Source of the DNA: Rhodospirillum sp.
Lineage (GTDB): Bacteria > Pseudomonadota > Alphaproteobacteria > Dongiales > Dongiaceae
Assembly: GCA_013822765.1 (NCBI GenBank)
Contig: PNKY01000002.1
Span: 558,001 to 622,000, forward strand
Length of the DNA stretch: 64,000 bases
Direction: 5' to 3'
Both the position numbers and the translations under genes were made by a program. The notes beneath the pieces are model-generated. The model did no database searches. It was not told where the DNA came from and worked only from the letters and a program-made list of their open reading frames with translations. Shown piece after piece: positions 9,420 to 56,406 of the stretch; positions within the stretch are counted from its first letter, which is position 1; every line of letters begins with the position of its first letter.

Positions 9420-9449
9420 CGTCACCTCGGCTCAAGGCCGGGATGACGG
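9420..9449. repeat. Intergenic inverted repeat (CGTCA-stem family) between convergent genes
   Basis: The arms GTCACCTCGGCT and GGCCGGGATGAC fold into an imperfect hairpin with a CAA loop. Read on the minus strand it begins CGTCATCCCGGCC, the same outer flank as the repeats near 16.3, 40.9 and 55.2 kb. It lies between convergent genes and may end transcription from both sides. Confidence 0.6.
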
Positions 9450-16254: not shown

Positions 16255-16403
16255 ACGTCATGGCCGGCTGAGCGGCGAGGAAGGTTTCTCACTTTTCCGT
16301 CCTGGCCGGACGAAGATCCGGCCATCCAAATTCGCGTGCAAGCGGCGGATCGACACTTGGATCACCGGGTCTCGTCGCGCTGCTCCTCGCCCGGCAATGA
16401 CGG
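16255..16403. repeat. Composite intergenic repeat: two inverted CGTCA-stem units
   Basis: Unit one contains the perfect hairpin TGGCCGGA-CGAAGA-TCCGGCCA (16303-16324), flanked by CCGTC and ATCCA. Unit two, in opposite orientation, is TTGGATCACCGGGTC ... GCCCGGCAATGACGG (16357-16403). A further partial copy, ACGTCATGGCCGG, starts at 16255. The element fills the gap between the aminotransferase start and the last LysE gene. The same flanks appear at 9.4, 40.9 and 55.2 kb. Confidence 0.65.
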
Positions 16404-16427
16404 AAAGAGAATGGGCGTCGTCATCCG

Positions 16428-17056
16428 TCACGCCGCGCGCTTGGCGAGGCCCAGCATGCCACCCATCGCGATCAGGACGCCGCCGGTGGCGCGGTTGATG
16501 TTCCTGCGGGCGCGGTAGCTGTGGATGAAGCGGCGCACTTGCGCGGCTAGGGTGGCATAGAGCGCGGAGTTGAGGGTGCCGAGGATGACGAAGCACGTGC
16601 CCAGGCGACCATCTGCGGCAGCAGCGGCCGCTCGACGTCAATGAACTGTGGAAAGAACGCGACGTAGAACATGATGCCGGCCGGATTGAGCGCGGTCACG
16701 ACGAAGGCCTGCGTGAACATGCGCCATCTGTCGCGCGCCAGCCGGCCGTCGTCCTCCAAGGTCTCCGGCACCGGCGCGCGCCAGGTCTTGATGCCGAGGT
16801 AGATGAGGTAGACGGCGCCGGCGATCTTCAGCGCGTTAGACTGCTCGGCGGACGTCATCAGCAACGCGCCGAGGCCAAGCAGCGTCAGCGTGAGCGACAC
16901 AATGTAGCCGAGGCAGACGCCCGGAACGCTGGCGAGCGCAGAGCGGCGACCCCGGGTCAGGACGTAGCTCACGACCAGCGTATCGGTCGGGCCGGGCATC
17001 ACCAGCAGCAGGATTGCAGCGGTGATGAAGGCGCCCATGGTGTGGAGTTCAGGCAT
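16428..17056 (-). pseudogene. LysE/RhtB-family exporter, frameshifted copy
   Basis: Third of three tandem amino acid exporter genes. The first 150 residues match its neighbours (MPGPTDTLVVSYVLTRG, ALNPAGIMFYVAFFPQF). Reading then leaves frame at the G-run at 16600-16602 and stops early. Adding one G restores VAWGTCFVILGTLNSALYATL and a full match to the paralogues down to GLAKRAA. With that base the gene would be 630 bases, the same as the other two. This is either a recent single-base loss or a sequencing error in a homopolymer. The exporter would sit in the inner membrane with six helices. Confidence 0.85.
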
Positions 17057-17068
17057 TCGCTCTCTCCA

Positions 17069-17698
17069 TCAGGCCGCGCGCTTCGCCAAGCCCACCAGGC
17101 CGCCCATCGCGATCAGGAAGCCGCCGGTGGCGCGGTTCATGTTCTTGCGCGCGCGATAGCTTGTGATGAGGCGCCGCACCTGCAGCGCCAGCGTGGCGTA
17201 GAGGATGGAGTTGAGGGTGCCCATCACGATGAAAGTCGCGCCGAACACCGCGACCTGGTTCAGGAGTGGCTTCTCCGCGCTCAGGAACTGCGGGAAGAAG
17301 GCGACGTAAAAGACGATCCCACCAGGATTGAGCGCGGTCGCCATGTAGGTATGCGCCATGATGCGCCAGCGGCCATGCTGCAGCGGCGCGCCGTCGTCGA
17401 GCGTCTCCGGCACCGGCGCGCGCCAAGTTTTGATGCCGAGATAGACGAGGTAGAGCGCGCCGGCGATCTTCAGGATGTTGAACAGTTCGGCCGACGCCAT
17501 CAGGATCGCGCCGAGCCCGAGCAGCGACAGGATCAGCGCGGTGGCGTCGCCGAGCGTCACGCCCGGCACGCTGGCCCAGGCCGAGCGCTTGCCCTGGGTG
17601 AGGGCATAGCTCACCACCACCATGTCGGTCGGGCCGGGCAGGATCAGCAGCGCCTCGGCAGCGAGGACGAACGCGATCCAGATCTGAAGATCGGGCAT
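17069..17698 (-). CDS. LysE/RhtB-family amino acid exporter (middle copy)
   Basis: Inner-membrane exporter of 209 aa with six hydrophobic segments. The family motif LPGPTDMVVVSYALTQGKRSA is near residues 20-40, and ALNPGGIVFYVAFFPQFL is in the centre. Relatives export lysine, arginine, homoserine or threonine. The start MPDLQIW aligns with both paralogues; an upstream in-frame ATG at 17707 overlaps the stop of the first copy (ATGA) and would add three residues. Substrate is not predictable. It is second in a three-gene tandem array. Confidence 0.88.
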   Translation of the reverse strand: MPDLQIWIAFVLAAEALLILPGPTDMVVVSYALTQGKRSAWASVPGVTLGDATALILSLLGLGAILMASAELFNILKIAGALYLVYLGIKTWRAPVPETLDDGAPLQHGRWRIMAHTYMATALNPGGIVFYVAFFPQFLSAEKPLLNQVAVFGATFIVMGTLNSILYATLALQVRRLITSYRARKNMNRATGGFLIAMGGLVGLAKRAA

Positions 17699-17703
17699 GA
17701 CGC

Positions 17704-18333
17704 TCATGCTGTGCGGCGGGCGAGGCCGAGGATGCCTCCGGTCACCAGCAGGATGCCACCGGCTGCACGGTTCAGGTTCCTGCGGGCGCGATAGCCCTTC
17801 AGGAAGCGCGTCACCTGGCCCGCCAGCAGGGCGTAGAGAACGGCGTTGACGGTCGCCATCACCAGGAAGGTGCCGCCGAGGACCACGACCTGCGGCAGGA
17901 GCGGCAGGTGGGCGCTCAAGAATAATGGGAAGAACGCGACGTAAAAGACGATGCTCTTGGGATTGAGCGCCGTGACGGCGTAAGCGTGTGCCGTGATGCG
18001 CCAGGGGGAGCTTTCGCGCGGCGCGTTCTCGTCGAGCGTCTCCGGAACTGGTGCGCGCAGCACCTTGATGCCGAGATAGATCAGGTAGGCGGCCCCGGCC
18101 AGCTTCAGCGCGGTGAACAACTCGGCCGAGGCGGCGAGCACCGCACCCAGGCCCAGCAGGGACAGCGCCATCGCGGTGAAGTCTCCGGCTGCGACTCCCG
18201 GCACCGTGGCCCAGGCGGAGCGCTTGCCCTGCGCCAGGGCGTAGCTGATGACCAGCAGCACCGTCGGGCCGGGAATGATGAGCAAGGCCTCCGTCGCGGC
18301 GACGAAGGATATCCAGGTGTGGAAGTCGGGCAT
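17704..18333 (-). CDS. LysE/RhtB-family amino acid exporter (first copy)
   Basis: Inner-membrane exporter of 209 aa from the ATG that aligns with the paralogues (MPDFHTWISF); an in-frame ATG 39 bases upstream is less likely. Motifs are IPGPTVLLVISYALAQGKRSA and ALNPKSIVFYVAFFPLFL. It is the upstream gene of the tandem set and overlaps the next gene by ATGA if the longer start there is used. No regulator of the LysG/Lrp type is adjacent. The three copies are diverged enough to have different substrates. Confidence 0.88.
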   Translation of the reverse strand: MPDFHTWISFVAATEALLIIPGPTVLLVISYALAQGKRSAWATVPGVAAGDFTAMALSLLGLGAVLAASAELFTALKLAGAAYLIYLGIKVLRAPVPETLDENAPRESSPWRITAHAYAVTALNPKSIVFYVAFFPLFLSAHLPLLPQVVVLGGTFLVMATVNAVLYALLAGQVTRFLKGYRARRNLNRAAGGILLVTGGILGLARRTA

Positions 18334-39578: not shown

Positions 39579-39587
39579 TGTGTCCCC

Positions 39588-40226
39588 CTAGACCGGCTGT
39601 TCGATCCCCTCCGCCTTCAGCATGCGAGCATAGCCAGGCCGCTGCATGACCAGCCGGATCAGCTTGTTGACGTGCGGATTGGCGTGGGCGGGAGTTGCCA
39701 TGAACTCGGTCCACTGCGCCAGCATCACCGCGTAGTAGTCGCAGACGTAGAAGGTCTGGCCACAGAGATACGGGCCGGACTTGGCGAGGTGCTGGTCGAG
39801 GAAACGGAACATGCCGGCGGCCTGCTGCTCGGCCTTGGTCTTCAGCTCGGCCTGGCGGTCTGCGCCGTCGATGACATGCTCGGGATGCCACCAATGCATC
39901 AGCGCAATCTGCAGCGTGTTGGTGAGATAGGCCATCCATTGCAGGAACAGCGGGCGATCCGCGCTGTCCGTCTTGGGCGCCAAGCCGGCTTCGCGATGTC
40001 GCTCCGCCAGGAACAGGGCGATGGCAGTGGTTTCGTAGAGGATCTTGCCGCCGTCATAGACCAATGTCGGCACGCGGGCGTGCGGGTTGATCTTGAGATA
40101 ATCGGGGCTGCGCTGCTCGCCCTTCGACGTATCGACCTTGATCAACTCGTACGGGACGCCGATATCTTCCAGCATCGCGTGCGGCGTCATGTTGGCACTG
40201 GCCGGCGACCAATAGAGCGTATACAT
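39588..40226 (-). CDS. Glutathione S-transferase, copy 1
   Basis: GST of 212 aa. The N-terminal thioredoxin fold reads MYTLYWSPASANMTPHAMLE with the cis-Pro in ARVPTLVYDGG and the ATAIALFLAE helix; the all-helical C-terminal domain follows. It is nearly the same length as the gene upstream and ends in the same sequence RPGYARMLKAEGIEQPV, so the pair arose by tandem duplication. The catalytic Ser/Tyr/Cys is not certain. Substrate unknown. Confidence 0.9.
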   Translation of the reverse strand: MYTLYWSPASANMTPHAMLEDIGVPYELIKVDTSKGEQRSPDYLKINPHARVPTLVYDGGKILYETTAIALFLAERHREAGLAPKTDSADRPLFLQWMAYLTNTLQIALMHWWHPEHVIDGADRQAELKTKAEQQAAGMFRFLDQHLAKSGPYLCGQTFYVCDYYAVMLAQWTEFMATPAHANPHVNKLIRLVMQRPGYARMLKAEGIEQPV

Positions 40227-40241
40227 GTGGTTCTCCTCGCC

Positions 40242-40880
40242 TCAGACCGGCTGCTCGATGCCCTCGGCTTTCAGCATGCGCGCGTAGCCGGGGCGCTGCA
40301 TGACTGCACGGATCAGCTTGTTGACATTTGGAGTGGTGTGCGCGGGCGTGACCATGGCGCGGGTCCAGCGTGCCAGCATCACGGCATAGTAGTCGCAGAC
40401 GTAGAAGGTCGAACCGCACAGATACGGACCCGACTTCGCAAGCTGCTCATCGAGGAAGCGGAACATCTCAGCCGTGCGCTGCTCCGCCTTGCACTTCACG
40501 GCGGCTTGCTCACTGTCGCCGTCGACGAATTTTTCCGAATGCCACCAGTGCATGCAGGATTCCTGCAGCGTGTTGGTGAGATACGCCATCCATTGCAGGA
40601 AGAGGCCACGGTCCTTGCTGTCGCTCTTCGGCATGAATGGGATGTTGGGGTGGCGATCAGCCAGGAACAGGCAGATGGCGGTCGACTCGTACATCACCCG
40701 GTCGCCGTCATAGACCAGGGTCGGCACGCGCGCGTGCGGGTTGAGCTTGAGGTAGTCCGCGCTGTGCTGGTCGCCGGCCTTGGTGTCGACCTTGATCAGC
40801 TCGAACGGCGCGCCGATCTCCTCCAGCATGGCGTGCGGCGCCATCGCGGCGCTGCCCGGCGCGAAATAGAGTTTGTACAT
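40242..40880 (-). CDS. Glutathione S-transferase, copy 2
   Basis: GST of 212 aa, paralogous to its downstream neighbour (15 bases apart). It opens MYKLYFAPGSAAMAPHAMLEE, with cis-Pro in ARVPTLVYDGD and conserved FLQWMAYLTNTLQE in the helical domain. It is the first gene of the GST-GST-GFA minus-strand run. A hairpin repeat lies upstream. Detoxification by glutathione conjugation is a family inference. Confidence 0.9.
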   Translation of the reverse strand: MYKLYFAPGSAAMAPHAMLEEIGAPFELIKVDTKAGDQHSADYLKLNPHARVPTLVYDGDRVMYESTAICLFLADRHPNIPFMPKSDSKDRGLFLQWMAYLTNTLQESCMHWWHSEKFVDGDSEQAAVKCKAEQRTAEMFRFLDEQLAKSGPYLCGSTFYVCDYYAVMLARWTRAMVTPAHTTPNVNKLIRAVMQRPGYARMLKAEGIEQPV

Positions 40881-40927: not shown

Positions 40928-40973
40928 TTGGATTACCGGGCCGCGACACTTCGTGTCGGCCCGGTGATGACGG
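40928..40973. repeat. Intergenic hairpin repeat (CGTCA-stem family)
   Basis: ACCGGGCCG (40935-40943) pairs with CGGCCCGGT (40957-40965); the inner part adds GACAC-TTC-GTGTC. Outer flanks are TTGGATT on the left and GATGACGG on the right, as in the unit at 16357-16403. It lies between two minus-strand genes and could end transcription of the nucleoside hydrolase mRNA or separate it from the GST genes. Confidence 0.65.
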
Positions 40974-54325: not shown

Positions 54326-54441
54326 GACGCCATCCCGTAGAGTGCGTGCGGCTCCGGCAGGGTGGCGCTATTGCCACGACTTTTCAATCAGTACATGGTC
54401 GGAGCAAAAGTGTCATTTGCGCGCGCTTGCGGAGCCGGGAC

Positions 54442-55152
54442 ATGAAACCTCTGCATATCGGGATCGTCGCCTGTTCCGCGGAGGGCGCGGCGCTGTGCTA
54501 CAAGACCATCTGCGTCGAGGGCGCGCAGCTGCTTAGACCCCACGCGCACCCGGAAATCTCGATGCATACGCCTTCGCTGGCGGACTACGTGGCGTGCCTC
54601 GAGCGTGGCGACCTGCCGGGCGTCGCCGACCTGATGCTCGCCTCGGCGGAGAAGCTGGCGCGGATCGGCGCCGACTTCCTGATCTGCCCCGACAACACGA
54701 TTCACGAGGCGCTGCCGCTGGTGCTGCCGCGCTCGCCGTTGCCGTGGCTGCACATCGCCGAAGTGGCGGCGGCGGAAGCGGCGGCGCGCGGATTCCAGCG
54801 CCTCGGCATCACCGGCACGCGCTGGCTGGTCGACAGCGAGGTCTATCCGGAGGCGCTGACGGCGCGCGGGCTCGACTACCTGCGTCCAAATGCGGCGGAA
54901 CGCGCGGAGACCAATCGGATCATCATGGAGGAGCTCGTCTACGACACGTTCCAGCCGGACTCGGTTGCCTATTTCCAGCGCGTGATCGCGCGCATGAGGG
55001 ACGAAGGGTGCGACGCCGTGATCCTCGGCTGCACCGAGATCCCGCTGATTCTCAGCGATGCCAACTGTCCGCTGCCGACGCTCGATTCCACGCGACTGCT
55101 TGCGCGCGCCGCATTGCAGCGAGCGGTGCAGGGCACTGCAACGGAACAGTAG
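54442..55152 (+). CDS. Aspartate/glutamate racemase-family protein
   Basis: Racemase-fold protein of 236 aa. The C-terminal acid-base Cys is C197 in ILGCTEIPLI. The first half-site is ICPDNTIHEA (C82, N85, T86), with one extra residue compared with the usual C-x-N-T; in some family members (for example the E. coli L-Asp/Glu-specific type) this Cys is Thr. So it may be a one-Cys enzyme or act on other substrates. It reads away from cydA and converges on the OYE gene. Confidence 0.85.
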   Translation: MKPLHIGIVACSAEGAALCYKTICVEGAQLLRPHAHPEISMHTPSLADYVACLERGDLPGVADLMLASAEKLARIGADFLICPDNTIHEALPLVLPRSPLPWLHIAEVAAAEAAARGFQRLGITGTRWLVDSEVYPEALTARGLDYLRPNAAERAETNRIIMEELVYDTFQPDSVAYFQRVIARMRDEGCDAVILGCTEIPLILSDANCPLPTLDSTRLLARAALQRAVQGTATEQ

Positions 55153-55176: not shown

Positions 55177-55280
55177 ACGTCATGGTCGTGCTTGGCACGA
55201 CCATACACGAGTTTCTCCCGATCGACGTGTCTCTGCCCATCGATACTCGTGGATGGTCGGACCAAGTCCGACCATGACGG
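55177..55280. repeat. Composite inverted repeat, two near-identical 37-base units
   Basis: Unit 1 has the hairpin ATGGTCGTG-CTTGG-CACGACCAT (55182-55204) with outer CGTC and ACACGAG. Unit 2 is inverted: ATGGTCGGA-CCAAG-TCCGACCAT (55253-55275) with CTCGTGG before and GACG after. The stems differ in the inner bases but each still pairs perfectly. It lies between convergent genes and may act as terminator. Same family as the repeats at 9.4, 16.3 and 40.9 kb. Confidence 0.75.
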
Positions 55281-55302: not shown

Positions 55303-56406
55303 TCAGTCGATCTCGTGCGACGGTGTGCGGGACTGGGCGCCTTTCGGTGCGGCGCGGAGGTACTGCGAGGGCCAGGCGCTCTCGTGGCCCAGTTCTGCGG
55401 CGGCTTCCAGTGGCCAGTATGGCGAGCGCAGCAGCTCGCGCGCCAGCAGCACCATGTCCGCTTCGCCGCCGCGGATGATGTGATCGGCTTGCGCGGCGCC
55501 GGTGATGAGGCCGACGGCAGCGGTCGGAATCCCCACCTCGCGACGAATGCGCGCGGCGAACGGCGTCTGGTAGCCGGGACCGACCGGGATCTCGGCCTTC
55601 TGGACGTTCCCGCCGGAGGAGCAGTCGATCATGTCGACGCCGAGGTCTTTCAGCTGCCGGGCAAGCTCAATCGACTGCTCGATGTCCCAGCCGCCCTCCA
55701 CCCAATCGGTGCAGGAGATGCGCACCAGCAGGGGGCAGCGCTCCGGCAGGTCGGCCCGCACCGCCCGCACGGTGTCGCGCAGGAACCGGGTGCGGTTCTC
55801 GAACGAGCCGCCATACTGGTCGGTGCGATGGTTGCTGAGCGGCGACAGGAACTCGTGGAACAGGTAGCCGTGGGCGGCGTGGATCTCGATCACGCGGAAA
55901 CCGGCGTGATAGGAGCGTTCCGCCGCTTCGACGAACGCTTCCTGCAGCCGGTGGATGCCGGCGGCGTCGAGCGGCTTGGGCATCGGATAATCCTCGGCGA
56001 AGGCCTCGGCGCTGGGCGCGAGCGGAACCCAGCCGCCGGCATTCTCGGGCACCTTGCCGTGGCCGGACCAGGGGCGGTGCGTGCTGGCCTTACGGCCGGC
56101 GTGCGCCAGCTGGATGCCGGCGATCGAGCCTTGCTGATCGATGAAATGCGTGGCGCGGGCGAGCGGCTCGAAGTGGCGGTCGCTCCAAACACCCAGGTCC
56201 TGTGGGGATATGCGGCCCTCGGGCGTGACCGCGGCAGCTTCCGTGAAGACCAGGCCGGCGCCGCCGATGGCGCGGCTGGCCAGGTGCACGAAGTGCCAGT
56301 CGTTTGCCATGCCCTCGCGCGAGGAGTATTGGCACATCGGCGAGACGCCGATGCGGTTGCGAAAGGTGATCTCGCGCAATCGGAATTCGTCAAACAGGTG
56401 CGGCAT
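55303..56406 (-). CDS. Old yellow enzyme family NADH:flavin oxidoreductase (YqjM/XenA-like)
   Basis: FMN enzyme of 367 aa that reduces activated C=C or nitro groups. It has the thermophilic-like OYE signature SPMCQYSS with C25 tuning the flavin, HAGRKAS in the substrate loop, and EIHAAHGYLFHEFLSPLSNHR with the active-site His pair. Start fits family length. It is a detoxification enzyme by family analogy. The efflux operon upstream is on the same strand but 51 bases away. Confidence 0.93.
   Translation of the reverse strand: MPHLFDEFRLREITFRNRIGVSPMCQYSSREGMANDWHFVHLASRAIGGAGLVFTEAAAVTPEGRISPQDLGVWSDRHFEPLARATHFIDQQGSIAGIQLAHAGRKASTHRPWSGHGKVPENAGGWVPLAPSAEAFAEDYPMPKPLDAAGIHRLQEAFVEAAERSYHAGFRVIEIHAAHGYLFHEFLSPLSNHRTDQYGGSFENRTRFLRDTVRAVRADLPERCPLLVRISCTDWVEGGWDIEQSIELARQLKDLGVDMIDCSSGGNVQKAEIPVGPGYQTPFAARIRREVGIPTAAVGLITGAAQADHIIRGGEADMVLLARELLRSPYWPLEAAAELGHESAWPSQYLRAAPKGAQSRTPSHEID

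Follow-up and report, generated by a model that had tools for sequence, protein, structure and literature searches.

Unequal pairs of CGTC-type REP hairpins behind stop codons in a Dongia genome

The element at 55.2 kb and its kind

The window analysed here is a stretch of 64,000 nucleotides (C2:558001-622000) from a 5.83-Mb draft genome in 53 contigs (completeness 97.71, contamination 5.82). This focal genome belongs to the genus of Dongia deserti, and Dongia lies in the Alphaproteobacteria, Rhodospirillales. Positions 55178-55279 hold a 102-nt element of two head-to-head inverted hairpin units, with the CGTC tags outermost (Table 1). The left side reads CGTC, a 9-bp stem ATGGTCGTG/CACGACCAT around the loop CTTGG, and then the inner arm ACACGAGTTT; on the right side, ATACTCGTGG follows the 28-nt core and leads into the inverted unit ATGGTCGGA/TCCGACCAT with GACG. 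The 5-nt CTTGG loop is found in both window units and in all 16 of the 16 focal pairs that we aligned, where its columns are invariant. Its outer letters could pair too, giving 10 bp and a 3-nt loop. The unpaired tail is CCA in the right unit and ACA in the left. An Rfam scan of the window returned no matches at gathering score.

Table 1. Features of the window, with positions counted from its first nucleotide.
Feature	Position	Strand	Remarks
Single imperfect CGTC unit CGTCATCCCGGCCTTGAGCCGAGGTGACG	9420..9448	-	without ATCCA
CGTC-like pair, different family	16298..16402	.	16298-16331 (CGTCCTGGCCGGA..TCCGGCCATCCAAAT) and inverse unit 16355-16402 (CGTCATTGCCGGG..CCCGGTGATCCAAGT)
Single long-loop CGTC unit	40928..40972	-	CGTCATCACCGGG..CCCGGTAATCCAA
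Asp/Glu racemase-family gene	54346..55152	+	PF01177, E 1.2e-28; stop 25 nt short of the element
Left CGTC unit	55178..55204	+	tag 55178-55181; stem 55182-55190 with 55196-55204; loop CTTGG 55191-55195; stem version GGTCGTG
Left inner arm ACACGAGTTT	55205..55214	+	focal-genome consensus CCACGAGTTT; first letter deviates here
28-nt core	55215..55242	.	varies from copy to copy
Right inner arm ATACTCGTGG	55243..55252	-	consensus AAACTCGTGG; near-complement of the left inner arm
Right CGTC unit, inverse	55253..55279	-	stem 55253-55261 with 55267-55275; loop 55262-55266; tag 55276-55279; stem version GGTCGGA
NADH:flavin oxidoreductase-family gene	55303..56406	-	PF00724, E 1.1e-68; convergent; stop 23 nt past the element

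A preliminary description of the window had joined this element to sites at 9.4, 16.3 and 40.9 kb through shared CGTCAT...ATCCA/ACGAG flanks. These flanks are present at 55.2 kb, but ACGAG occurs there only, and the 9.4-kb unit has CGTCAT without ATCCA. The 16.3-kb pair ends in CCAAAT and CCAAGT and has one tag CGTCCT, the 40.9-kb unit ends in CCAAT, and the loops of both differ from that of the 55.2-kb unit. By our reading of these letters, the three sites belong to CGTC families other than that of the 55.2-kb element. An extra half unit CGTCATGGCCGGC (16256-16280) adjoins the 16.3-kb pair. The window also contains two tandem runs of similar DNA that look like duplicated genes, one at 16424-18317 (spaced by about 640 bp, with a LysE-type translocator among its predicted genes) and one at 39583-40862 (spaced by 654 bp, with a glutathione S-transferase among its predicted genes).

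The element is abundant in the focal genome. The constant-letter pattern GTCATN{5,11}TTGN{5,13}ATCCA, which requires no pairing, matched 153 times and its reversed form 0 times, which puts the element far above chance. The preliminary description had proposed a genome-wide search with a covariance model and would have given way if other copies were few or absent or if their base pairs did not covary; in the event, copies proved many and pair covariation strong. A model of the pair built from 16 focal pairs gave 149 strand matches at E <= 0.001, merged into at least 73 places after three places below 35 bits were excluded. This count is a lower bound, since 150 of 3343 first-look candidates were scored. 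At several of the 73 places one of the two hairpins has decayed, and the place in L138 belongs to a different type. We worked with these covariance-model places and set aside a loose regular expression for dimers that had many false intragenic matches. Across the focal genome and 30 relatives, 23 of 31 genomes had model matches at E <= 0.001.

The window element is almost certainly a CGTC REP pair, and it comes closest to the CGTC-3 REPs described by Di Nocera, De Gregorio and Rocco (2013, PMC3733652). As in that description, an unpaired CGTC tag (in CGTC-3 often TGTC or CCTC) stands at one end of a 9-bp stem that starts with AT and carries a 5-nt loop and a CCA-like tail. The many copies, counted in the head-to-head dimer orientation, are mainly intergenic and 3' of genes; the CGTC-3 description likewise has predominant heterodimers between tandem or convergent genes, and it links no transposase to the family. 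These features fit CGTC-3, so the kind of element is already known. CGTC-4 agrees with CGTC-3 in stem and loop lengths, and it is by the spacer, not by consensus letters, that the two may be told apart here: the CGTC-4 dimers described from Wolbachia have spacers of 1-2 bp (PMC3733652), and that of the Dongia pair is about 48 nt. The same paper reports CGTC REPs from all orders of Alphaproteobacteria and without transposase association, and Dongia is not named in its main text. A search of the 97.7% complete focal draft for the Y1 transposase domain (PF01797) gave 0 matches; the control was positive in 5 of 14 known genomes.

Stem versions and unequal partners

The claim that the stem letters vary and still pair was borne out. 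In the 16-pair alignment, 99.1% of cells were paired, compared with 25-40% when the partners were slid, and 15 of 28 pairs were altered on both sides, compared with at most 3 in the slid controls. Among 500 shuffles of this alignment, the number of changed pairs was reached by 1 and the covariation score by none. The count of further pair types (21) was not above that in the shuffles (23.1; 493 of 500 reached it). We also collected focal units in the fetched DNA by their constant letters alone (CGTCA, CTTGG, CCA); 86 of 107 had 9/9 pairs, 17 had 8/9, 4 had 7/9 and none had fewer, a count biased toward paired copies because much of this DNA was fetched with the pair model. The inner arm CCACGAGTTT shows no covariation within the focal genome. 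Among 87 unique units, drawn from every fetched genome and required beforehand to have 6/9 pairs or more, stem position 1 was A-T in 82 and position 2 was T-A in 74.

A slightly broader pattern gave 110 focal units, of which 89 were perfectly paired and 21 imperfect. Eight stem versions, each with at least 3 copies, make up 84 of the 89 perfect units, and several of these versions differ by blocks. Most of the imperfect units (18 of 21) have one or two uncompensated letters in one arm; 1 mixes two versions and 2 are altered in both arms. A few rare versions differ from common ones by a single pair (e.g. GGTCGCG, GCCAAGC, GCCAGTG). Covariation in the stems is thus real, but it is mainly variation between fixed versions, and point changes are rarely compensated. 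Eight versions with uncompensated departures from them suggest that hairpin versions are exchanged or copied whole, rather than altered by stepwise compensation. The 'compensating stems' of the preliminary description therefore stand as covariation and mostly fall as compensation. Of its two readings, selection on the hairpin or mosaic mobile repeats, the evidence lies nearer the mosaic one. Its observation is partly to largely confirmed and its interpretation partly supported.

Within a pair, the hairpins resemble each other without being identical. None of the 48 focal pairs in which both 9-bp hairpins could be parsed had equal 5' arms. We would expect 6.0 equal pairs when all partners are shuffled (zero in 0.14% of shuffles) and 11.7 when shuffling within stem group (zero in 0/5000), though these shuffles overstate significance, as copies share ancestry and the counts are not independent. 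Partners differ by two base pairs in 39 of 48 cases, and no shuffle had a mean difference as low as the observed 2.25 (lowest 2.35). Of the 51 pairs parsed in 21 other genomes, 1 had equal 5' arms (L158, in G003), and the 3' arm of the L158 unit is mismatching. Two pairs of other families in D. deserti slots have equal stems and unequal loops. C/G flips make up 0.57 of the differences between focal partners and 0.30 of those between non-partners (highest of 500 shuffles 0.40). We do not take this as a special rule for partners, since the excess was not clear in 18 other genomes (0.54 vs 0.47).

A pair can fold either into one long hairpin or into three local ones, and we computed both energies for 101 of 104 parsed pairs. 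As RNA, the long fold minus the three local hairpins averaged -14.1 kcal/mol in the 101 real pairs, compared with -34.8 in virtual pairs with equal partners; as DNA, the advantage of the long hairpin was 8.8 compared with 24.6 kcal/mol. The local hairpins win in 3/101 pairs as RNA and in 5/101 as DNA, and the minimum-free-energy fold of the window's own pair is the long hairpin. The idea that unequal partners make the local hairpins the most stable fold is ruled out, because the long hairpin is better in 98/101 pairs (RNA); unequal partners thus weaken the long hairpin without abolishing it. Di Nocera et al. (2013) suggested that heterodimers may evade enzymatic clearance. In their account, some families have homodimers only (including A. 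tumefaciens CGTC-3), and the preference for unequal partners had 'no obvious explanation' (PMC3733652). In the parsed focal pairs this preference is strict, and it has a measurable energetic consequence.

Position behind genes and slots in related species

Placement relative to genes was taken from a simple, purpose-written gene finder based on codon bias. The 73 places comprise 24 convergent, 43 tandem and 4 divergent gaps and 2 sites within a predicted gene, so that 67 of 73 are convergent or tandem. For comparison, the gaps in these loci that lack a dimer and span 60 nt or more were 16 convergent, 55 tandem and 31 divergent, with some gaps counted twice as the loci partly overlap. The element starts 8-49 nt past the stop codon on 45 of 48 convergent sides and on 35 of 43 upstream tandem sides. 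Eighty stops had an element at -20 to 60 nt, at a median distance of 27 nt; 76 of these distances were 15-45 nt and 2 were below 15. A hairpin followed by a T-tract (5 or more T among the eight letters after it) within 120 nt of the stop was found at 0/80 element stops and in 4/87 control gaps, and the elements are therefore not ordinary intrinsic terminators. Work quoted in PMC5082802 has E. coli REPs as barriers to 3'-to-5' decay or as Rho-linked ends, and as stalling ribosomes when they lie <15 nt from the stop codon; the Dongia elements mostly lie beyond that distance.

Two relatives were compared closely, Dongia deserti SYSU D60009 (G002, same genus) and the MAG FK1.bin31 (G003). The search for shared slots started from loci around focal elements and so was able to find shared slots only. 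We kept 20 (8 in D. deserti, 12 in G003), excluding L196:7337 and L164 (twice), which were loose-regex rows in coding or unparsed sequence. The stems in a shared slot are either the same or switched between species. At L001/L157 the focal GGTCGTG (with 3 nt extra) and GGTCGGA face CCCAAGG and GGCAAGG in G003; at L136/L091 a focal GCCAGGG faces CCCAAGG, and at L030/L092 a focal GCCAAGC faces CCCAAGG. Both hairpins are letter-identical at L094/L061. In G015, from another genus of the same family, the slot of the focal C1:877780 has GCCCGCA and GGCCGGG stems. The cores were uninformative as markers of descent, being no closer at shared slots than between unrelated copies (mean identity 0.62 in 15 same-orientation cases vs 0.62). 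Core orientation is opposite between species at 5 of 20 shared slots (the L147, L120, L129 and L137 slots), as would result from a flip or a fresh insertion of the pair. With cores equally alike at shared and unrelated slots, a given copy may have descended in place, but repeated insertion at favoured spots also fits.

We then examined all 12 focal slots in six stretches fetched from the focal genome, D. deserti and G003. In D. deserti, 10 of the 12 could be mapped, and all but one of the 10 carry at least one CGTC- or TGTC-tagged hairpin with a CCA-like tail. Of these 9 slots, two (C10:112022, C9:155611) have the same type as the focal genome but different stems, and seven have other families by loop and tail. 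The mapped slot C9:158739 has no tagged hairpin in D. deserti, and the unmapped C3:42946 has, by eye, another, non-CGTC repeat. In G003, 10 of 12 slots were mapped and 4 of 10 had a tagged hairpin, of the same type at C1:653120, C2:456694 and C10:112022 and of another type at C9:155611. By eye, G003 also has a decayed same-type element at C1:637576 and a lone hairpin with a 27-nt repeat at C3:276632, and there is a gene-sized insertion at C2:459247. The same detector found a hairpin in 1/31 (D. deserti) and 1/35 (G003) control gaps without a focal hairpin, many of them short (only 13 and 16, respectively, are at least 60 nt in the relative), and in 2/345 and 4/371 coding stretches. A detector for whole pairs, which missed several true ones, showed a weaker association: 5/8 vs 2/33 in D. 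deserti (p 0.0014) and 2/7 vs 2/37 in G003 (p 0.11). Conversely, one slot that holds a pair in D. deserti (C16:15029) has no element in the focal genome, where only a few bases separate the apparent gene ends (by eye).

Several of these properties go beyond the CGTC-3 description: 0/48 equal partners, which typically differ at two base pairs, the narrow distance to the stop codon, slots shared between species with replacement of one family by another, and the nested 27-nt repeat. What is unusual for an element of this known kind is that partners are alike but unequal and that a relative keeps hairpins of the same general type at the same spots while changing their version. Orthologous slots with different fillings offer a natural experiment for telling function from parasitism.

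A candidate role and its alternatives

In E. coli, REP hairpins act as barriers to 3'-to-5' decay or form part of Rho-linked ends. The Dongia elements combine high copy number and fixed anatomy with a stop distance of about 27 nt, unequal partners in every parsed focal pair and slots shared with relatives. The explanation we favour, and consider probable as a whole, is a CGTC REP heterodimer that serves as a barrier at RNA 3' ends and whose stems change by version replacement. Transcripts of one or both flanking genes would carry the element at their 3' end, and the hairpins in it would form a two-way barrier that halts 3'-to-5' trimming, perhaps also aiding Rho-dependent or collision-driven termination. 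We give this role, which parallels that of E. coli REPs, an even chance. Keeping the hairpins alike but unequal would, in the RNA energy model, lower by about 20 kcal/mol the margin by which the long hairpin (or a DNA cruciform) is favoured over three local ones. The stems would change chiefly by swapping in ready-made versions, through copying of whole hairpins between repeats, rather than by stepwise compensation; for this part, too, we see the balance as about level. A more tentative and rather doubtful extension is that conserved slots about 25 nt after Dongia stops each need a hairpin pair, but no particular one. Interchangeable pairs from several CGTC families would refill these slots, the rule of alike yet unequal partners would keep the hairpins separate, and versions would move as cassettes without a known REP transposase.

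Stepwise compensatory mutation at each site, with only the hairpin shape being needed, would account for the strong covariation and for the few rare versions one pair off common ones. It is improbable, given that eight versions, several differing by blocks, hold 84 of 89 perfect units, that 18 of 21 imperfect units are uncompensated, and that the L094/L061 hairpins are letter-identical where pairing alone would permit drift. Letter-exact versions and the non-covarying inner arm CCACGAGTTT suggest sequence recognition, as would suit a DNA-level site at which the RNA is irrelevant. E. coli REPs and BIMEs are bound by gyrase, IHF-like or other nucleoid proteins, and putative binding of this sort in Dongia is an analogy that we think unlikely, as other families at the same slots carry different letters. 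E. coli BIMEs are pairs of two different REP classes 3' of genes, of the GTAG type and with a RAYT present; the Dongia pairs resemble them in pairing different REP classes behind genes and differ in sequence. Intrinsic (Rho-independent) bidirectional terminators would likewise be stable hairpins directly past stop codons, often between convergent genes, but the lack of a T-tract hairpin within 120 nt of any of the 80 stops, against 4 of 87 control gaps, makes this reading very unlikely.

The elements might also be selfish, REPIN-like miniature mobile elements, with a transposase in trans (unidentified or lost), that land or survive mainly behind stops; recent spread or recognition by an enzyme would then maintain their hairpins, without benefit to the host. 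Their anatomy fits: like the REPINs of Pseudomonas fluorescens (Bertels and Rainey 2011, PMC3116915), they are doublets of inverted REPs in which the ends are conserved and the spacer, constant in length, is less so, and the REPIN description also includes alternative long-hairpin and 'clover' folds and compensatory changes. Presence differs between genomes (the C16:15029 slot is empty in the focal genome and C9:158739 in D. deserti), and the 27-nt repeat nested in REP stems indicates that small elements enter here. However, REPINs are tied to RAYT transposases (PMC3116915), whereas the Dongia partners are unequal, their tag is CGTC instead of GTAG, and the draft has no match to the Y1 domain that marks a RAYT; CGTC repeats are also reported without transposase association (PMC3733652). 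Moreover, the cores of the copies are unlike beyond their common ends, where recent copying of whole elements would predict likeness. We regard this mobile-element reading as possible but on the unlikely side. The Dongia element may fold like REPINs and may stand where intrinsic terminators stand, with the defining features of neither.

Another alphaproteobacterial system, Br-REP1 of Bradyrhizobium japonicum with its flanking palindromes (PMC5082802), likewise has three palindromes and lies in overlapping 3'-UTRs of convergent genes. There, dRNA-seq suggested complementary small RNAs from the repeat. It differs in that the counted repeat is the central palindrome CCGGAATCTCGAGATTCCGG, with letters unlike those of Dongia (PMC5082802).

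The 27-nt repeat CCGACGAATGTCGGCCTNCGCCGACGG occurs in the focal genome as a 25-nt core 18 times with at most 3 mismatches, compared with 0 in a reversed control (loci L009, L011, L116, L120, L141, L142, L143, L144, L146, L147, L151, L153 and L154). By reading, 15 of the 18 copies lie within the stem of a recognisable CGTC unit, 1 at the edge of a truncated unit and 2 elsewhere. The hosts are CGTC-3 pairs and CCCGG-type units, once with a tandem pair of the repeat. In the G003 copy of the C10:130287 slot, the repeat is absent and the stem intact. A second CGTC family with an 8-bp stem (CCCGGC CTTGA GCCGGG) is common in the focal genome (including L011, L120, L147, L151, L153 and L154); its four parsed pairs combine ATCCCGGC and ACCCCGGC, one base pair apart. 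A further pair type at L138:1584-1671 has GGCCGGG and GCCCGGG stems, CTTGT loops and inner arms CCACGTCTT/AAGACGTGG.
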